A stretch of DNA of 64,000 bases from Halomonas sp. I5-271120 (GTDB lineage Bacteria > Pseudomonadota > Gammaproteobacteria > Pseudomonadales > Halomonadaceae): contig NZ_CP130702.1 in NCBI RefSeq assembly GCF_030553075.1, positions 165,492-229,491 of the forward strand, in the 5' to 3' direction. The notes beneath the pieces are model-generated. The model had not been told where the DNA came from. It made no database searches and worked only from the letters and a program-made list of their open reading frames with translations. Made by a program: the position numbers and the translations under genes. This document shows positions 52,649 to 59,722 of the stretch, one piece after another; positions within the stretch are counted from its first letter, which is position 1; every line of letters begins with the position of its first letter.

Positions 52649-54265
52649 ATGAGTGAACTAACCGCCCCATTTTTCCGTCCTGCCGATGCCGAGACCATCC
52701 AATGGTGGTTATCGCATGGTGTACGCAAGCCACTCGGACATAAGGTGTCCGCCCTCCTGACGATTGAGCGTGAAGTCCTGAAAGCCTGGGGCGTCTTGAG
52801 TCAGCAGGGGGAAGTCTTTGGCGTCGACCAGCTGATCCAAGAGATGAATTCACGGAGCGCAACGCCTCGCACAGACCGGGGGATTTACACCAAGATCAGC
52901 CGGATGAGCCTCTGGCTGGCTCACAGTGGTGTCGTTTGGCGCGAGCGTGCTTCCGAAATGGGGGTTGGTCATTCGCGATCCATGATCTTTTCGCTCAGGG
53001 CGCCGACTGAGGTGGCCAGGAACTGGAAGGGGTCTCCGCGAGCGACGCAGGACAATCCTGAGGTCTGGCGGAAGTCGGCGAAAGCAAATGGCTCCCCCAC
53101 TCCCCCGGCAGTCGAGCCCCACGTCGACAAAATCGAAGCGACGCACCGCCTGTTGCGTCAGCTCGAGGGACAGGCGCTGACGACGACCAACGCCGACGAT
53201 AACGAGCACTGGACCCTGAACCTGGTCTCGCAGCTGCTGGAGCGCTGCTCGCGGGCAAGTACCCGCGATCGCAGCGAATCCCTGGCGTCGCGGATCCAAC
53301 TGGGGAGCGAGCACGTTGATGTCACCACCATCAGCTCGCACCAGCGAAGCAGTGACGGCTCCTACTACGGGATGATCACTGGGGATGATGCGCAGCTGAT
53401 CCTGGCTATCCTCACCACCGCGGTTCAGGACATCACCCGCGCTCGAGCTTCCGGCCAGCGGCCGCGCAACTGGCTGCGCATTGACCTTCAGGATCTCTTC
53501 CGGCTGCTGATCCCGAATGGCACCCGTAAGGAATACAAAGCCATGCAGGCCGGGATGGCGCGTATCATCAACACGGAGTTCATCCTTGAGTTTGATCAGG
53601 ACGGTTCACTCAAGGCCCGGATGGAAGAGGCCCAAGGCGGGCAATCTGTCGATCGCTTCCGCTTTCGCCTAGTCGAGCATGTCGTGGAAGGCCTGGATGA
53701 CGAACCCCTCGCGCTAGATGAATGGGAGCCTTCCGATGCGGGGATGCGCTATTTCGCCTTCAGCCTCCATCCCCTGCTGTTCCAGGGGCTGCAGAATGGG
53801 CAAGGCCTGCTCGTGCACCCTGAGTTGCTTTATGAAAGGTCAGGCCTGGTGCATAAGCTCTATCATCACCTTCGTCTGCACTCCGGCCCGAGCGCACCCT
53901 ACATCGTGCATGCCGAAGACCTGCTCACCAGCCTAAACCTCGCGACCGGGGCGAATTACCGTCGTGCCAGAATCGATTTCAGTGAGAACCTCTGGGACCT
54001 GCTCAGGGAGCGATCGGTCCGCGCGGGCGCCCTTCTGCCGTCCGAGCTGACAGAGCCGACCCCGGTACGCTTATTCGACCTGGATCTGATCGTTGCCCCG
54101 ACGGACCATCACAAATCGGCTCTGGTCATCGAGGCCTACCACAGTGATGAGACGAAACAGCTGATCGAGCGTCAGGAGGCTCGCCGGCGCCGGCTGCAAC
54201 AGCAGGCCTTGCAGGATGGCAGCGGAGAGCAAGGTTTCTTGCCCTTTCTTAATTACGATAAATAG
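52649..54265 (+). CDS. Plasmid replication initiator (538 aa)
   Basis: Placed directly after the iteron array. Two winged-helix-like regions can be seen (about residues 25-110 and 375-440, the latter with LVHPELLYERSGLVHKLYHHL), joined by a polar linker. The C-terminal end is a basic helix (IERQEARRRRLQQQ). It is larger than RepE/TrfA-type initiators and I cannot name the family, but the context is clear. It binds the ATCACC-core repeats and starts replication. Fragments of its 3' end recur at 58074 and 59630. Confidence 0.72.
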   Translation: MSELTAPFFRPADAETIQWWLSHGVRKPLGHKVSALLTIEREVLKAWGVLSQQGEVFGVDQLIQEMNSRSATPRTDRGIYTKISRMSLWLAHSGVVWRERASEMGVGHSRSMIFSLRAPTEVARNWKGSPRATQDNPEVWRKSAKANGSPTPPAVEPHVDKIEATHRLLRQLEGQALTTTNADDNEHWTLNLVSQLLERCSRASTRDRSESLASRIQLGSEHVDVTTISSHQRSSDGSYYGMITGDDAQLILAILTTAVQDITRARASGQRPRNWLRIDLQDLFRLLIPNGTRKEYKAMQAGMARIINTEFILEFDQDGSLKARMEEAQGGQSVDRFRFRLVEHVVEGLDDEPLALDEWEPSDAGMRYFAFSLHPLLFQGLQNGQGLLVHPELLYERSGLVHKLYHHLRLHSGPSAPYIVHAEDLLTSLNLATGANYRRARIDFSENLWDLLRERSVRAGALLPSELTEPTPVRLFDLDLIVAPTDHHKSALVIEAYHSDETKQLIERQEARRRRLQQQALQDGSGEQGFLPFLNYDK

Positions 54266-54331: not shown

Positions 54332-55075
54332 ATGCATATTAAGAAGGACCTTATTGACCCAGACGGAAGTGTTTTTTTAAAAACGGTTAAGGGATACCTT
54401 GAAAACGAAATAGAAACAGAAGATGAATACACAAAAGTGCTATCTTGGGCTTTCTCAAAACTGGACTTTGAACAATTTGCCTACGTTTACATGCCTTACC
54501 TACCAAGTGAGGCGAAAAATGCAGTCATCCTAGGGAGTTATCCATCAGGATGGCAGCTTTTTTATAAAAGCGAAGGACTTCATCGGAAAGACCCTGTCCT
54601 CGCAGAATCTGCGGGAACAACAATGCCATTTTACTGGCGAGGAGGGAGAATAGGCATAGGGGATCAGGAAGACATTTTCAAACTCTCTGCTCGTTACGGA
54701 ATAGAGCAAGGTTATACAATCCCAGTGCACGAGCCAGGTTGTTCATTTGGATCAATCCACCTAGCGTCTCGCCTTGAAAATGATGAATTTTATAAGCTTA
54801 TAGATAGTCAAGGTCATCTGCTTCAATGCTTGGCAAGCTTAGCGCATATATACCGCCCTGCTACTGCTCGAAAGCTACCCTATGCCGATTTAAGCTTGCG
54901 TGAGAGGGAGTTCTTGCACTGGTCTAGCCAGGGTAAAACATATCAAGAGGCCGGCATTATAATGGGCATATCAGAAAGAACAGTGAAATTTCATGCTCAA
55001 AATTGTATGAGAAAGCTTGAAGCTATTAACGTGAGGCAAGCAATTACAAAAGCTTTGCGTTTAGGGTGGGTTTAA
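54332..55075 (+). CDS. LuxR-type quorum-sensing regulator (247 aa)
   Basis: The N-terminal autoinducer domain has the invariant residues of the family: W74, Y78, D87, P88 and W102, and G128 in GYTIP. The C-terminal GerE-type helix-turn-helix (residues 185-247) contains LSLREREFLHWSSQGKT and ISERTVKFHAQNCMRKL. It should bind an acyl-homoserine lactone and then the lux box at 55946. I use ATG 54332; GTG 54317 is an alternative. AT-rich compared with the initiator gene, so probably acquired together with the genes that follow. Confidence 0.88.
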   Translation: MHIKKDLIDPDGSVFLKTVKGYLENEIETEDEYTKVLSWAFSKLDFEQFAYVYMPYLPSEAKNAVILGSYPSGWQLFYKSEGLHRKDPVLAESAGTTMPFYWRGGRIGIGDQEDIFKLSARYGIEQGYTIPVHEPGCSFGSIHLASRLENDEFYKLIDSQGHLLQCLASLAHIYRPATARKLPYADLSLREREFLHWSSQGKTYQEAGIIMGISERTVKFHAQNCMRKLEAINVRQAITKALRLGWV

Positions 55076-55128
55076 TACGTCTCGAAAATGAGTGTAACTT
55101 CAATAGACCGACGGCATAACGTCATATC

Positions 55129-55167
55129 GGAAGACAACCTCTGCTGGTTTTTTAGAGGGCGTCTTCC
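55129..55167. terminator. Hairpin between converging luxR and luxI
   Basis: GGAAGAC (55129-55135) pairs with GTCTTCC (55161-55167) and CCTCT (55138-55142) with AGAGG (55154-55158). It is likely a shared end for both transcripts. Confidence 0.5.
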
Positions 55168-55223
55168 AGTATCGCTGGTGTTACCCCAAAGGGCTCTCCC
55201 CACCTCCTGTACTTGCTCATCTA

Positions 55224-55889
55224 TTAGCAAGCAAGATCGGTTGACTTGGAATCTGCCGACATGAATTTACTTTTATTCTGAAGTCTTTCTTTTACCTCTC
55301 CATTGGACAACAGATCACCTAGGTAAATCTTTTCTCCTTTGCTCCCGAAACTAACATCTAATATCTTGCAATCCCAGCCAGCTCTTCTGAGGATGCGCAG
55401 CATTAGCTCATCGACAACAATAAGGTAGTGGGAAAATCCAGCAAGACATGAGAAATCTAGCATCGCCATAAATAGAGCAACTGTTCTGATGTCGAGATTA
55501 GAAGAAATAATCTTTGGCTTCCGGGTTATGGTGAAGCGTGAAGCCTCCCAGTAAAGTGAACTTCTGTAGGACTCAAGATCCACCAATGGGAACATGTGGT
55601 TCAAACAACCGGCAATCATGTTTGTGGAATAGAAAGGGCGTGCCCTTAAACAGCCTGCAAGCTGACCATTGTGATACAGGCAAGTGTAATAGCTATCCTC
55701 ATCGTCATATTCATCCCTTTCGAGATCACCTCCCGTGTAGCTTTTGATATCCCATTTCCTCCTATCGATAAAAGACTCCTTGCGAAGTTGGTATATCTCT
55801 TCTAACGCCTTATTATCAAGCTTGCAGAAATTGTAAGTCTTTGAATGAAAGCTATATCCAAAAAGATCTATGGTCGAATGCGTTACCAT
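55224..55889 (-). CDS. LuxI-type acyl-homoserine-lactone synthase (221 aa)
   Basis: All key residues of the family are present: R36, F40 and W46 (LRKESFIDRRKWDI), E57, D59 and D62 (ERDEYDD), R82 and E115/R118 (WEASRF). It makes an AHL from S-adenosylmethionine and an acyl donor. I use ATG 55889 rather than 55934, because a lux box at 55946-55965 with a -10 (TATATT, 55918-55923) would put the transcript start near 55911, downstream of the longer start. Downstream it converges with luxR. Confidence 0.88.
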   Translation of the reverse strand: MVTHSTIDLFGYSFHSKTYNFCKLDNKALEEIYQLRKESFIDRRKWDIKSYTGGDLERDEYDDEDSYYTCLYHNGQLAGCLRARPFYSTNMIAGCLNHMFPLVDLESYRSSLYWEASRFTITRKPKIISSNLDIRTVALFMAMLDFSCLAGFSHYLIVVDELMLRILRRAGWDCKILDVSFGSKGEKIYLGDLLSNGEVKERLQNKSKFMSADSKSTDLAC

Positions 55890-55945
55890 GATTTTGGCTC
55901 TTGAGGCTGGACATTTAAATATAATTCTTCGCATATTGGGTCCGC

Positions 55946-55965
55946 AACTGTCCTTTCGTACAGCT
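55946..55965. promoter_or_regulatory. lux box between luxI and the peptide operon
   Basis: AACTGTCCTTTCGTACAGCT matches the Vibrio fischeri lux box (ACCTGTAGGATCGTACAGGT) at 14 of 20 positions and keeps the inverted ACTGT/ACAG arms. Its centre is about 44 bases from the likely luxI start site, the usual activating distance. It lies 104 bases before the peptide start on the other side, so it can serve both directions. Confidence 0.75.
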
Positions 55966-56069
55966 GGGATAAGACAGCATGATCGTTAACCTTAAAGTGC
56001 GCCCAGCAGGGACGATGGTGCGCATGAAGCCATCAAGGACTGATCCATTTTCTCTTTAGGAGTATCGAT

Positions 56070-56198
56070 ATGAATACGCTGATCAAGCTGGCTCAGCAGC
56101 AGCCGAAAACTGTTAAGCCCGAGCAGACTGCACAAACTCAAAAGTTCTCCGAGAATGATGCCGGTGGGGGTCATTGCCAGGGCGGCGGTAGCTGGTAA
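56070..56198 (+). CDS. 42-residue Gly-rich peptide (possible RiPP precursor)
   Basis: ATG 56070 has AGGAG at 56058-56062, seven bases upstream; stop TAA at 56196-56198. Residues 1-31 look like a leader (Lys/Gln/Thr/Glu-rich, no signal peptide). Residues 32-42 are GGGHCQGGGSW, with the only Cys and Trp and a His beside the Cys. It is the first gene after the lux box, followed at 57 bases by a WHHHILDT-motif protein and then a MATE exporter. The most likely reading is a quorum-controlled precursor of a modified, exported peptide; a regulatory small protein is the alternative. Confidence 0.65.
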   Translation: MNTLIKLAQQQPKTVKPEQTAQTQKFSENDAGGGHCQGGGSW

Positions 56199-56255
56199 GC
56201 GCGCCATGCTGCATGAGGAGAGGCTAGGCCTCTCCTCTTAGTTCCGGAGGTTATA

Positions 56256-56732
56256 ATGCGAAACGTTGCTGATATACTCGACACTCTCCCCCATGACATG
56301 ACTACTCCAAGCTTGGAAGATACTCCGAGTATTGAGTATGCAGTAGAGCACATCAATGCCATGGACTTTTCAGCCCTAAAGGGAAAACTTACCCAACCGG
56401 ACCCTACAGTTTCACGTCTCTGGGAATCAGAAGAAGTCGATGTAGCTGTTCAGTATTACAAAAACTTCCTCTACTTGAACAAGAAATACCTTGATGTTGC
56501 CCCTGTAATTGTTCCAAGCATTGAGGTTGACGAGGTTTGGCATCATCATATCCTTGACACGAGAAGATATTTCGCTGATACGTATCAGATATTCGGCTAT
56601 TACTTCCACCACTTCCCATATTTTGGTATGCGAGGAGAAGCTGATCACACCAACCTTGTTGACTGCTTCGAAGCAACCCAACAATTACATGAGCTAGAGT
56701 TTGGTGAAAGGATGAGGAGAATATGGGCATAG
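56256..56732 (+). CDS. WHHHILDT-motif protein (GRDP-like, 158 aa)
   Basis: ATG 56256 follows CCGGAGG. Residues about 88-135 carry a striking motif set, VDEVWHHHILDTRRY, YYFHHFPYFGMRGEAD and FGERMRRIW, as in the glycine-rich-domain-containing-protein (DUF1399) family, whose biochemical role is not established. The clustered His residues suggest a metal site and catalysis. Positioned between the Gly-rich peptide and the exporter, it is the natural candidate for a modifying enzyme acting on the peptide. The stop overlaps the next start by ten bases. Confidence 0.65.
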   Translation: MRNVADILDTLPHDMTTPSLEDTPSIEYAVEHINAMDFSALKGKLTQPDPTVSRLWESEEVDVAVQYYKNFLYLNKKYLDVAPVIVPSIEVDEVWHHHILDTRRYFADTYQIFGYYFHHFPYFGMRGEADHTNLVDCFEATQQLHELEFGERMRRIWA

Positions 56733-58051
56733 CATCGACATCTGGTTTTGGCAATGAGAGCTATAAGACTTTCATTTCAACTCGAATGGCGCCATTTAGC
56801 GTCACAAGATTTATGCCTTTTGCCTCCACTGCCACCCTGATTCTTTTCTTATCAAGGTCCAGCTTCGATGCTTTGTCAGTGTTTGGGTACTTGATGTCTG
56901 TTTTTATGGTAGCGACTACCATTTTGACGATGCCGCTTATGGTTGTCGGAAACCTGGTTGCCCGCAATCCGAATAACAACGGCATTGGCATCTATTTTTA
57001 TTCGGGGATACTTCTAGCTTTTATCCTAGGGGTTATCGCAGCTGCTATAAATTACGCGATCGTCACATACTATGTTTCATTCGATGGCATGACAGGGTTT
57101 ACTTACGCCAAAGTCATTCCATATGTCACATTATACCTCCTGTCGATCGTAGTGCTTAGCATCAATAGCTTCTTATACATTTATATGGAGGCGTTGGGCC
57201 TTCAGCGCAGCGTGTCTAGGTCAAAGCTTATTTCCTCTATCTCCACCATAGGTTTTATAGTAATAGCCTTGGGTGTCCTTAATCCTAAAAGCCCACTGGC
57301 ATACTCCATGGGCAGCTTTATTTTAGGTGAGGGGCTTCTGCTATGCTCTTTACTTATGTTTCTGGTGTTTAGAAATTGCAAGGAATGCCTAATACCTCCT
57401 CCAAAAAGCCGCTATCTTCGACTCCTTCCCATGCACAACATAATGAGCTTAGGCCTCCCTGTTGCCGTAGGCATGGGAGGGCAAAAAGCTATTTATTATC
57501 TTATAAATGACAGGCTTTTGACGCTTGATATTGATTACGTTGGAATGCTTTCCGTTTTTAGTAGTATAAGTGCATTGGTTCTAATTCCAGTGGCAGCTTT
57601 TTGCCAAGCTAACAGCTTGGCGGTTAGCAGAAAACCCGGAAAGTGCTTCGACAACTTTTTCTACAGTGTAGCAGGGTGGGTTTTGGTAATAGTTCCTACC
57701 CTGTTCATCGGGTGTGTTTTTTTTCCTGTCTTAGTAAGGTTATTTGGCCTTAACGATGAACTGGCAGGATATGACGCTAGCATCCTGCTGGCCCTGGTTG
57801 TATTCGTGGTTTCAAGTGGGATACTGACCTTTGCAACAAGCGCGCTTCGTGGAATGCGGGATACCTTTGTGCCACAAGTAGCTATTACTTCTGTGATGCT
57901 TATGCTGTTTATCCCGCTTATTTGGTCCAATCTCTTTGATGATGCGTCTTTTGTTAGTATCATCTACTCCCAGTCTCTCTTCCTCTTTCTATGCGGAGTT
58001 GCTATGACAATTCGGTATTTCCAGAAATCTATGCAGATATACGAGTATTAG
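56723..58051 (+). CDS. MATE-family exporter (442 aa)
   Basis: Twelve or more hydrophobic helices. Two halves show the MATE/MurJ pattern, including LGLPVAVGMGGQKAIYY at the start of the second half and SALRGMRDTFVPQVAITSV near residue 375. These transporters use an ion gradient to export drugs, metabolites or lipid-linked compounds across the inner membrane. ATG 56723 lies inside the previous gene with GAGGAGA upstream, so the two are translationally coupled. It is probably the exporter of the operon's product. Confidence 0.78.
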   Translation: MGIASTSGFGNESYKTFISTRMAPFSVTRFMPFASTATLILFLSRSSFDALSVFGYLMSVFMVATTILTMPLMVVGNLVARNPNNNGIGIYFYSGILLAFILGVIAAAINYAIVTYYVSFDGMTGFTYAKVIPYVTLYLLSIVVLSINSFLYIYMEALGLQRSVSRSKLISSISTIGFIVIALGVLNPKSPLAYSMGSFILGEGLLLCSLLMFLVFRNCKECLIPPPKSRYLRLLPMHNIMSLGLPVAVGMGGQKAIYYLINDRLLTLDIDYVGMLSVFSSISALVLIPVAAFCQANSLAVSRKPGKCFDNFFYSVAGWVLVIVPTLFIGCVFFPVLVRLFGLNDELAGYDASILLALVVFVVSSGILTFATSALRGMRDTFVPQVAITSVMLMLFIPLIWSNLFDDASFVSIIYSQSLFLFLCGVAMTIRYFQKSMQIYEY

Positions 58052-58073: not shown

Positions 58074-58154
58074 CATATCGAGCGCCAAGAGGCTCGCCAG
58101 TGCCAGCGGCAACATCAAGCTCTGCAGGACGGCTGCGAAGGACAGGGCTTTGCC
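58074..58154 (+). pseudogene. Scar of the initiator 3' end, copy 1
   Basis: The DNA (ATCGAGCGCCAAGAGGCTCG onward) aligns with initiator codons at 54164-54243 and would read IERQEARQ and ALQDG. It begins 22 bases after the exporter stop, marking the right edge of the quorum-sensing module. 58052-58381 has no gene otherwise. Confidence 0.6.
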
Positions 58155-58819: not shown

Positions 58820-59431
58820 CTAACACTCTTGGTGGTCGTCTAATGCCACGCTCAAGTTTCCAAAGACGCGAGTTTTCTCACCTACATAGTAGTCGATCGC
58901 TTCCCGGGCGAATCGTTCAAATTCAGAGACATCGACCTGAGGAAGGCTCAGCAGTGCCTGGATATCTTGCTGATCGCGCTCACCAAACCTGCCGAGCTTC
59001 GAAATCGCCACATCGATTGCACTGGCGACGTAGACTTCGACGTTTGGGATGCTGCTCTGTGCCACCAGCCGCACAACCCGATCTTCGTAGTCCTCGTGCA
59101 GCGGTGCTAGCGTTGTATTGAAGCTGGCGTCCAGCTCTAACGTCTGTAAGTTACCCTCATCGTCGGTAAAGACATAGGGATCTCCTTCCAGAAGCGCAAC
59201 GATCTCGCTCTTTGTAGCATATCCATGCGACGAGACTTCAGCATCTACGTCGGCACTGCCTCGTGCTTGCGTGTGGATATGAACCGCACACCCACCAAAA
59301 ACGATGACCCGGAAGATTCCCTTATCGCCCTCATCGTATACGGGGCCAAGTACCTCGAAAAAATCTACAAGGGCTTGTCCCAATGCCGTATTCGGCTCTA
59401 TTGACGGGTAATCCCCTGGTTCGATCGGCAT
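58820..59431 (-). CDS. Nucleotidyltransferase-fold protein (203 aa)
   Basis: ATG 59431 follows TGAGGAGGCAGC. VIVFGGCAVHIHTQARGSADVDAEV near residue 45 fits the Gly-Gly-x(n)-Asp-x-Asp motif of minimal nucleotidyltransferases (DUF6036/AbiEii type). The rest is acidic, with a helical C-terminus (FARE-AIDYYV). Such proteins act as the toxin or antitoxin of nucleotidyl-transfer systems. A motif shared with the helicase promoter lies 110 bases upstream. Confidence 0.65.
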   Translation of the reverse strand: MPIEPGDYPSIEPNTALGQALVDFFEVLGPVYDEGDKGIFRVIVFGGCAVHIHTQARGSADVDAEVSSHGYATKSEIVALLEGDPYVFTDDEGNLQTLELDASFNTTLAPLHEDYEDRVVRLVAQSSIPNVEVYVASAIDVAISKLGRFGERDQQDIQALLSLPQVDVSEFERFAREAIDYYVGEKTRVFGNLSVALDDHQEC

Positions 59432-59629
59432 GCTGCCTCCTCACAAGCACATACCACAATTCTACCACATAGCGCTTTCCCAGCTGGACTGGTTGCAGAC
59501 AGGAGGGCTGAAGCAAGCCCGTTAGCGTAATAAATACTAAATATCGTATACCGTAAGGTGTAATTATTATCGCCCACCCCCCCTATTTGGCTGCCTGGTG
59601 CGAGCAAGACTCCCTGTTGCTACCACCAG

Positions 59630-59722
59630 TGGATCGTCAAGAGGCTCGCCGGCGCCAACTGCGACAGCAACCCCTGCAGGACAGCAGCGAAAACAAGGTT
59701 TCTTACCTCTTCTATAAATGTC
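59630..59722 (+). pseudogene. Scar of the initiator 3' end, copy 2
   Basis: The + strand reads VDRQEARRRQLRQQPLQDSS, closely matching the initiator end IERQEARRRRLQQQALQDGS. It has no start or body. It lies upstream of the nucleotidyltransferase operon and marks another junction in the mosaic. Confidence 0.6.

Follow-up and report, generated by a model that had tools for sequence, protein, structure and literature searches.

The window analysed here is a stretch of 64,000 nucleotides of Halomonas sp. I5-271120 (contig NZ_CP130702.1). It carries a three-gene operon (56070-58051) that encodes a 42-amino acid (aa) peptide, a GRDP-like protein (PF07173/DUF1399) and a MATE-like membrane protein, and lies next to a LuxR/LuxI-type pair for quorum sensing by N-acyl-homoserine lactone (AHL). 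We consider it likely that the operon is a cassette resembling those for ribosomally synthesized and post-translationally modified peptides (RiPPs), and that GRDP-like enzymes, whose precursors are either split from the enzyme or fused to it, modify cysteine. A preliminary description of this DNA had proposed a RiPP-like pathway in which the peptide tail is modified by the His-rich protein. That proposal gained strong comparative support from conserved peptides and fused motifs, covalent modification being its predicted part; the AHL control that it also proposed gained little. The present finding is broader: the GRDP-like family looks like a class of enzymes modifying Cys peptides, with split and fused substrates.

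The operon consists of the following genes.

56070-56198, + strand: precursor-like peptide with the tail GGGHCQGGGSW, 42 aa; relatives lie upstream of GRDP genes
56256-56732, + strand: GRDP-like (PF07173/DUF1399) protein, proposed peptide-modifying enzyme, 158 aa; Pfam 25.0 bits (curated cut-off 22.7; several relatives fall below it)
56723-58051, + strand: MATE-like putative exporter, 442 aa; Pfam MatE 20.2 bits, below the cut-off of 24.9

In the proposed mechanism, the peptide would be a precursor made of a variable leader and the C-terminal core HCQGGGSW, the GRDP-like protein would modify either the cysteine of the core or the X-Cys bond, and the MATE-like protein would export the finished small product. 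A metal would probably be held by H96, H98, H118, H119, D92 and D101 of the GRDP-like protein. Split relatives would act on a separate precursor, often with an exporter, and fused ones on Cys motifs of their own C-terminal tail, with no exporter seen. LuxI/LuxR would have arrived together with this copy or next to it, and might turn the operon on at high cell density.

The peptide, the GRDP-like protein and the recurring operon

The gene set named in the preliminary description (luxR, luxI, the 42-residue peptide, the His-rich protein and a MATE-type gene) is present, with coordinates and Pfam matches as listed here, and the ten-base overlap of its last two genes was seen at 56723-56732. Sequences like ribosome-binding sites precede all three operon genes (AGGAG, GGAGG and GAGGAG). 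A short precursor-like gene stands beside the gene of the proposed enzyme, as in RiPP loci. An alignment of 11 peptides had the conserved C-terminal core and variable leader typical of RiPPs: H35, C36, G38 and W42 did not vary at all, Q37 and G40 hardly varied, and the leaders differed. Some of the reference sequences, those of L017 and L019, do not begin exactly at the start codon but a few residues away from it. Because distant genomes also have HCQGGGxW-type tails encoded upstream of this gene, and because the peptide profile matched only one of 369 genomes of the class, namely its own, the 42-aa peptide is not a chance open reading frame (ORF).

The peptide-GRDP-MATE operon is found again, with no luxR/luxI, in Pseudomonas, Yersinia, Neisseria and Legionellaceae. 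A search of 72,556 plasmid records with the GRDP-like protein gave 13 relatives. For example, plasmid pPsv48C of Pseudomonas savastanoi carries, in the same order, a peptide MKTT...NNNGGGGHCQGGGGW, a GRDP-like gene and a gene for a 442-aa membrane protein. HCQG-type peptides were found directly upstream of the GRDP gene in Pseudomonas (L018, L020-L022), Yersinia thracica (L019) and Neisseria iguanae (L017), and also in two metagenome-assembled genomes (MAGs), one gammaproteobacterial (L025) and one of Legionellaceae (L026); a Delftia MAG (L024) had an HCEGRW variant at this place. In two other Pseudomonas plasmids, p1448A-A and pCOR2203 (L010, L011), an intact peptide gene accompanies a GRDP-like gene that is apparently interrupted by a short insertion.

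In Pfam, the window GRDP-like protein matched PF07173 only, with no alpha-N-methyltransferase domain, and among solved structures it had no match by sequence or by fold. We know of no reaction for GRDP/PF07173 proteins. Its AlphaFold2 model was all-helical with a mean predicted local distance difference test (pLDDT) score of 91.9. Thirteen alignment columns were invariant in 75 sequences, including Y68, D92, W95, H96, H98, D101, Y105, H118 and H119. From this His/Asp set we infer metal binding and catalysis. For a fused member (modelled from 17 sequences, mean pLDDT 68.5), the core was mostly well modelled, the score falling to 58 over residues 131-140, the site of its HH motif; the tail scored 44-54, as would a flexible substrate tail.

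Split and fused members of the family

We scanned one genome per species for GRDP-like proteins and kept the best 80 of 531 relatives, a sample that leans to the kin of the window protein. A GRDP-like ORF was read in 79 of these loci; L095, a broken gene without an ORF, is outside all counts. An automatic rule that asked for Cys beyond the catalytic region classed 48 of the 79 as tailed (tails of 23-157 aa with 2-11 Cys) and 31 as tailless. L092 was tailed by the rule and was relabelled tailless by hand, on the basis of its hydrophobic tail and a separate Lys-rich Cys peptide upstream, for the tree (43 tailed and 32 tailless of 75) and for the exporter counts (47 and 32 of 79).

The long tails (60 aa or more) were mostly arrays, with units such as AAWCSLEAGK in Variovorax, ANAFCGAPEKQ in Duganella, AAFCSIEPSQ in Rhizobacter, DTATCTDKIYV in Thiomargarita, and also AMCGVAV; L050 and L054 have tails long enough to count here but no regular repeats. 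In the 20 long-tail loci, which have 153 Cys, the residue before Cys was Trp in 69 cases, Tyr in 38, Phe in 21, Met in 7 and Thr in 6. Trp, Tyr or Phe thus preceded 128 of the 153, and Ala stood at -2 in 135. Short tails differed in type, for example CWHDCENRCWHACSND in Bacteroidota and spirochaetes. Their Cys (109 in 27 loci) mostly followed Asp, Ala, Arg or Lys, so an aromatic residue before Cys is not a general rule.

Tails of this kind raise another reading, in which the GRDP-like domain serves as an escort that binds the peptide or a metal, and the Cys/His/Gly peptide or tail is exported as an unmodified metal ligand. Richness in Cys, His and Gly suits metal binding, the metal could be bound by the conserved His, and 17 of the 21 distant members whose ends were read finish in a Gly/Ser/Cys tail. 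However, the aromatic residue before Cys and the Ala at -2 in the long tails would be odd for plain metal ligands, Tyr68, Trp95 and Tyr105 are invariant too, and possible tailoring genes (TauD, methyltransferase, JmjC) accompany particular tail or core types. We therefore regard an escort role as unlikely and prefer cysteine modification.

In the tailless loci, separate peptides of several types were seen: HCQGGGxW; RxPSTRVMxCD in Micromonospora and Nocardia; Lys/Arg-rich peptides of 14-35 aa with ends near ARC or SAC in Xenorhabdus and Moraxella; and AFCGKLCMP-type peptides in Kiloniella, Aestuariispira, Marinomonas and a Saccharospirillaceae genome. An upstream Cys peptide was convincing by eye in 22 of the 31, and 18 of these were in high-scoring pairs. 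When pairs of loci were compared for similar short ORFs upstream (score cut-off 42, pairs more than 75% identical in the catalytic region excluded), 39 of the 452 tailless-tailless pairs shared one on the strand of the gene, and a single pair of the 452 did so on the other strand. The corresponding numbers were 23 versus 2 of 1075 for tailed-tailed pairs and 2 versus 0 of 1488 for mixed pairs; most of the 23 probably come from the end of the TauD gene that lies upstream. A second, separate sample of 398 genomes of the phylum contained 26 with a match, and the eight strongest places (E ≤ 1.6e-40) were the window and seven Cys-tailed proteins, two of them with arrays. The preliminary description had expected a conserved short peptide beside homologues; what was found is Cys peptides upstream or Cys motifs fused to the enzyme.

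The two architectures differed in their downstream genes. A same-strand ORF with at least eight predicted membrane spans followed in 15 of 32 split loci versus 0 of 47 fused loci, three of which (L043, L050, L065) had less than 900 bp downstream. Ten downstream proteins of split loci were compared with Pfam; five matched MatE, MFS or POT, one an aminotransferase, and four had no match. Relatives of the window MATE-like protein were found by phmmer in 11 of 90 GRDP loci, as four pieces in L017 (Neisseria). Those in L025 and L026 (phmmer 2.9e-8 and 1.7e-6) matched Pfam MatE at 5.9e-24 and 6e-19.

An exporter would also fit a bacteriocin-like or toxic peptide, with the GRDP-like protein as a maturation or immunity factor. 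The plasmid-borne, scattered distribution and the low GC content and cell-density genes of the window cassette are in keeping with this. Against it, fused members bear up to 11 Cys on the enzyme, with a predicted exporter behind none of the 47, and some separate precursors have just 14-21 aa, such as MKRTRKIAKPSACE. A toxin is thus quite improbable, and a RiPP-like cassette remains our preferred reading.

In a tree built from 75 catalytic regions (alignment of 144 columns, possibly including a few tail residues; the near copies L041, L065, L078, L083 and L089 excluded from alignment and tree, as were L097-L101), fused and split members lay on opposite sides of one branch (SH-aLRT 99). The tree was made by a quick method and is unrooted, with 39 of its 72 inner branches unresolved. 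The fused/split character needed one change of state, versus a mean of 24.4 after shuffling. Core types, six in all, were given to 50 of the 75 rows and needed five changes, the minimum possible for six types. The type of Cys motif follows the enzyme clade.

Several points weigh against the proposed mechanism. H118 is Asp in L004-L006 and L016, and among distant members H98 is Phe in L008 and D101 is Tyr or Phe in L007, L008 and L014. Four of the 22 accepted peptides were judged by eye, five of the 31 tailless loci had no recognisable peptide and four had weak candidates only, and both the score threshold for pairs (42) and the core types were fixed once the peptides had been inspected. Cleavage, presumably a further step, has no candidate enzyme in the window operon, where Pfam gave no protease or known RiPP enzyme (no systematic search for proteases was made); a Peptidase_S9 gene was seen beside one relative, L059. 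For no GRDP-like member did we find a modification, product or activity.

Some neighbouring genes travelled with particular tails. A gene of the CHASE/GGDEF-EAL or CHASE/histidine-kinase type, or a relative of one, lay within about 600 bp of 16 of the 18 repeat-array loci (L033, L045, L046, L056, L060, L062, L066, L067, L070, L072, L074, L079, L081, L082, L084 and L087); L044, near a contig end, and L052 had none. These loci are mostly from Burkholderiales, hence not independent. A histidine-kinase query matched none of the 59 loci that are not among the 20 with long tails. Pfam detected CHASE in seven of nine such neighbour proteins and not in those of L033 and L050. A TauD-type dioxygenase gene adjoined all 11 loci with CWHDC-type tails (L037, L041, L043, L051, L057, L061, L065, L073, L089, L090 and L096; by Pfam for two, by phmmer for all).

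The CHASE-type neighbours suggest a link between array-tailed GRDP genes and signal receptors. We tentatively extend this to a bolder and rather doubtful reading: the GRDP-like proteins would be a cross-phylum class modifying Cys peptides to make small X-Cys-derived signalling molecules (X = Trp, Tyr, Phe, His, Arg or Met), either from separate peptides or from core arrays on their own tails. Signalling would be tied to the CHASE-type sensor kinases or cyclic di-GMP enzymes beside the arrayed systems, and the window copy would be wired to AHL.

The quorum-sensing pair and the setting of the cassette

The region around the operon has the following further features.

54332-55075, + strand: luxR-type AHL receptor/regulator, 247 aa (Pfam Autoind_bind 7.6e-25, GerE 7.1e-14)
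55224-55934, - strand: luxI-type AHL synthase, 221 aa (Pfam Autoind_synth 5.3e-31)
55946-55965, no strand: lux-box-like site AACTGTCCTTTCGTACAGCT, 14 of 20 positions as in the Vibrio fischeri lux box
54164-54237, + strand: direct repeat, left copy, the 3' end of gene 52649-54265; brackets the cassette
58077-58150, + strand: direct repeat, right copy, 77% identical to the left copy

The two lux genes are convergent, and both proteins matched all the domains expected of their families; the catalytic residues of LuxI were assessed by eye. The genome holds a single luxI match. The lux-box-like site is one of two sites scoring at least 14 in the 64-kb window and is self-complementary at 12 of 20 positions; the runner-up within the same intergenic stretch scored 11. 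The preliminary description had the box facing both ways. This held for the luxI side, where a -10 sequence matched at five of six positions (TATATT); on the peptide side the best -10 matched at four only, with long spacing, a point against control of the operon. Because TATATT lies downstream of the first ATG of the luxI ORF (55934), luxI possibly starts at the ATG at 55889.

AHL control of the peptide operon is plausible given the adjacency and the one lux-box-like site. It is also a serious possibility, somewhat short of even, that LuxR/LuxI share the acquired segment as unrelated neighbours and do not control the operon. No LuxR/LuxI homologue was found beside 90 other GRDP loci (ORFs of at least 80 aa, flanks up to 5 kb, phmmer E ≤ 1e-4), and the good -10 sequence is on the luxI side only. 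The pairing is therefore special to this plasmid among the loci examined, LuxI/LuxR look like a local addition to the cassette, and the site favours luxI autoregulation. On the other side, the lux-box-like site lies within a shared 135-bp upstream region, and all five genes are held by one low-GC segment between two repeat copies.

This segment (54.3-58.1 kb), which contains the five genes, has a GC content of 0.42-0.48, versus about 0.6 on its left and 0.53-0.62 just to its right, and is flanked by the 74-bp repeat. The segment resembles an acquired cassette and belongs to the second contig of the genome (229,491 bp). Gene 52649-54265, the source of the repeat, had a sub-threshold match to the replication initiator RPA (17.1 versus 27 bits). 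A third repeat copy lies at 59629-59702 (74% identical to the first), and a second module beyond the cassette, encoding a DUF6036 protein (58820-59431), is likewise bracketed by repeat copies. It is as if modules had been slotted in behind gene 52649-54265.

The same genome has a second GRDP-like gene on its main contig (L002, 1441-1947, - strand, 168 aa), whose product carries the short Cys tail ARSCAPQRCP. Judged by eye, a methyltransferase-like ORF begins at its stop codon and an IS30-like transposase ORF precedes it.

Significance and comparison with known systems

These results point to an undescribed class of peptide natural products. If so, PF07173/DUF1399, present in bacteria and plants, would gain a function, and a new RiPP-like class would open, with naturally occurring arrays of as many as 11 substrate cores. 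In fused members the chemistry is directly testable on the tail of one purified protein. The window copy would in addition be an AHL-linked peptide pathway.

The claim of the preliminary description that no described system has this gene set held in searches of an open-access library without preprints. Within the same scope, we found no link of DUF1399 or of a fused precursor of this kind to RiPPs. In our open-access search, the DUF1399/PF07173 literature was mostly on plants, including maize and soybean. Plant GRDP proteins have the Pfam family in common with the window protein; in the literature found they are studied for growth, stress and ovule development, with no peptide operon.

Among known RiPPs, the enzymes of MNIO systems (PF05114, formerly DUF692), which include methanobactin, pearlin and bufferin (PMC12452194), also stand in small gene clusters with mostly Cys-centred substrates. 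They differ in their enzyme: the eight window proteins scanned with Pfam had no MNIO domain (MbnB_TglH_ChrH, PF05114), and the words GRDP, DUF1399 and PF07173 are absent from the text of that paper. In the same paper, Cys-tailed TIGR04222 proteins are putative MNIO substrates (PMC12452194). A TIGR04222-like membrane protein ending GGGCSGCGGCGGCG (36.3 bits, cut-off 43) adjoins a distant GRDP-like gene (L007, 326-1171, - strand).

The window resembles LuxI/LuxR quorum sensing in its complete pair and lux-box-like site. An earlier link between AHL and RiPPs is the AHL-induced microviridins of Nostoc (PMC8386392). Here the LuxI/LuxR pair adjoins the peptide cassette itself, an arrangement not seen at the other GRDP loci.

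The closest parallel in architecture is the borosins, with fused types I-III and split type IV (PMC8429565). As in the GRDP-like family, one enzyme family occurs both fused to the precursor core and separate with a separate precursor. Borosin enzymes, however, are alpha-N-methyltransferases, whereas the GRDP-like protein is a small helical domain with no methyltransferase match and a conserved Cys as its putative target.

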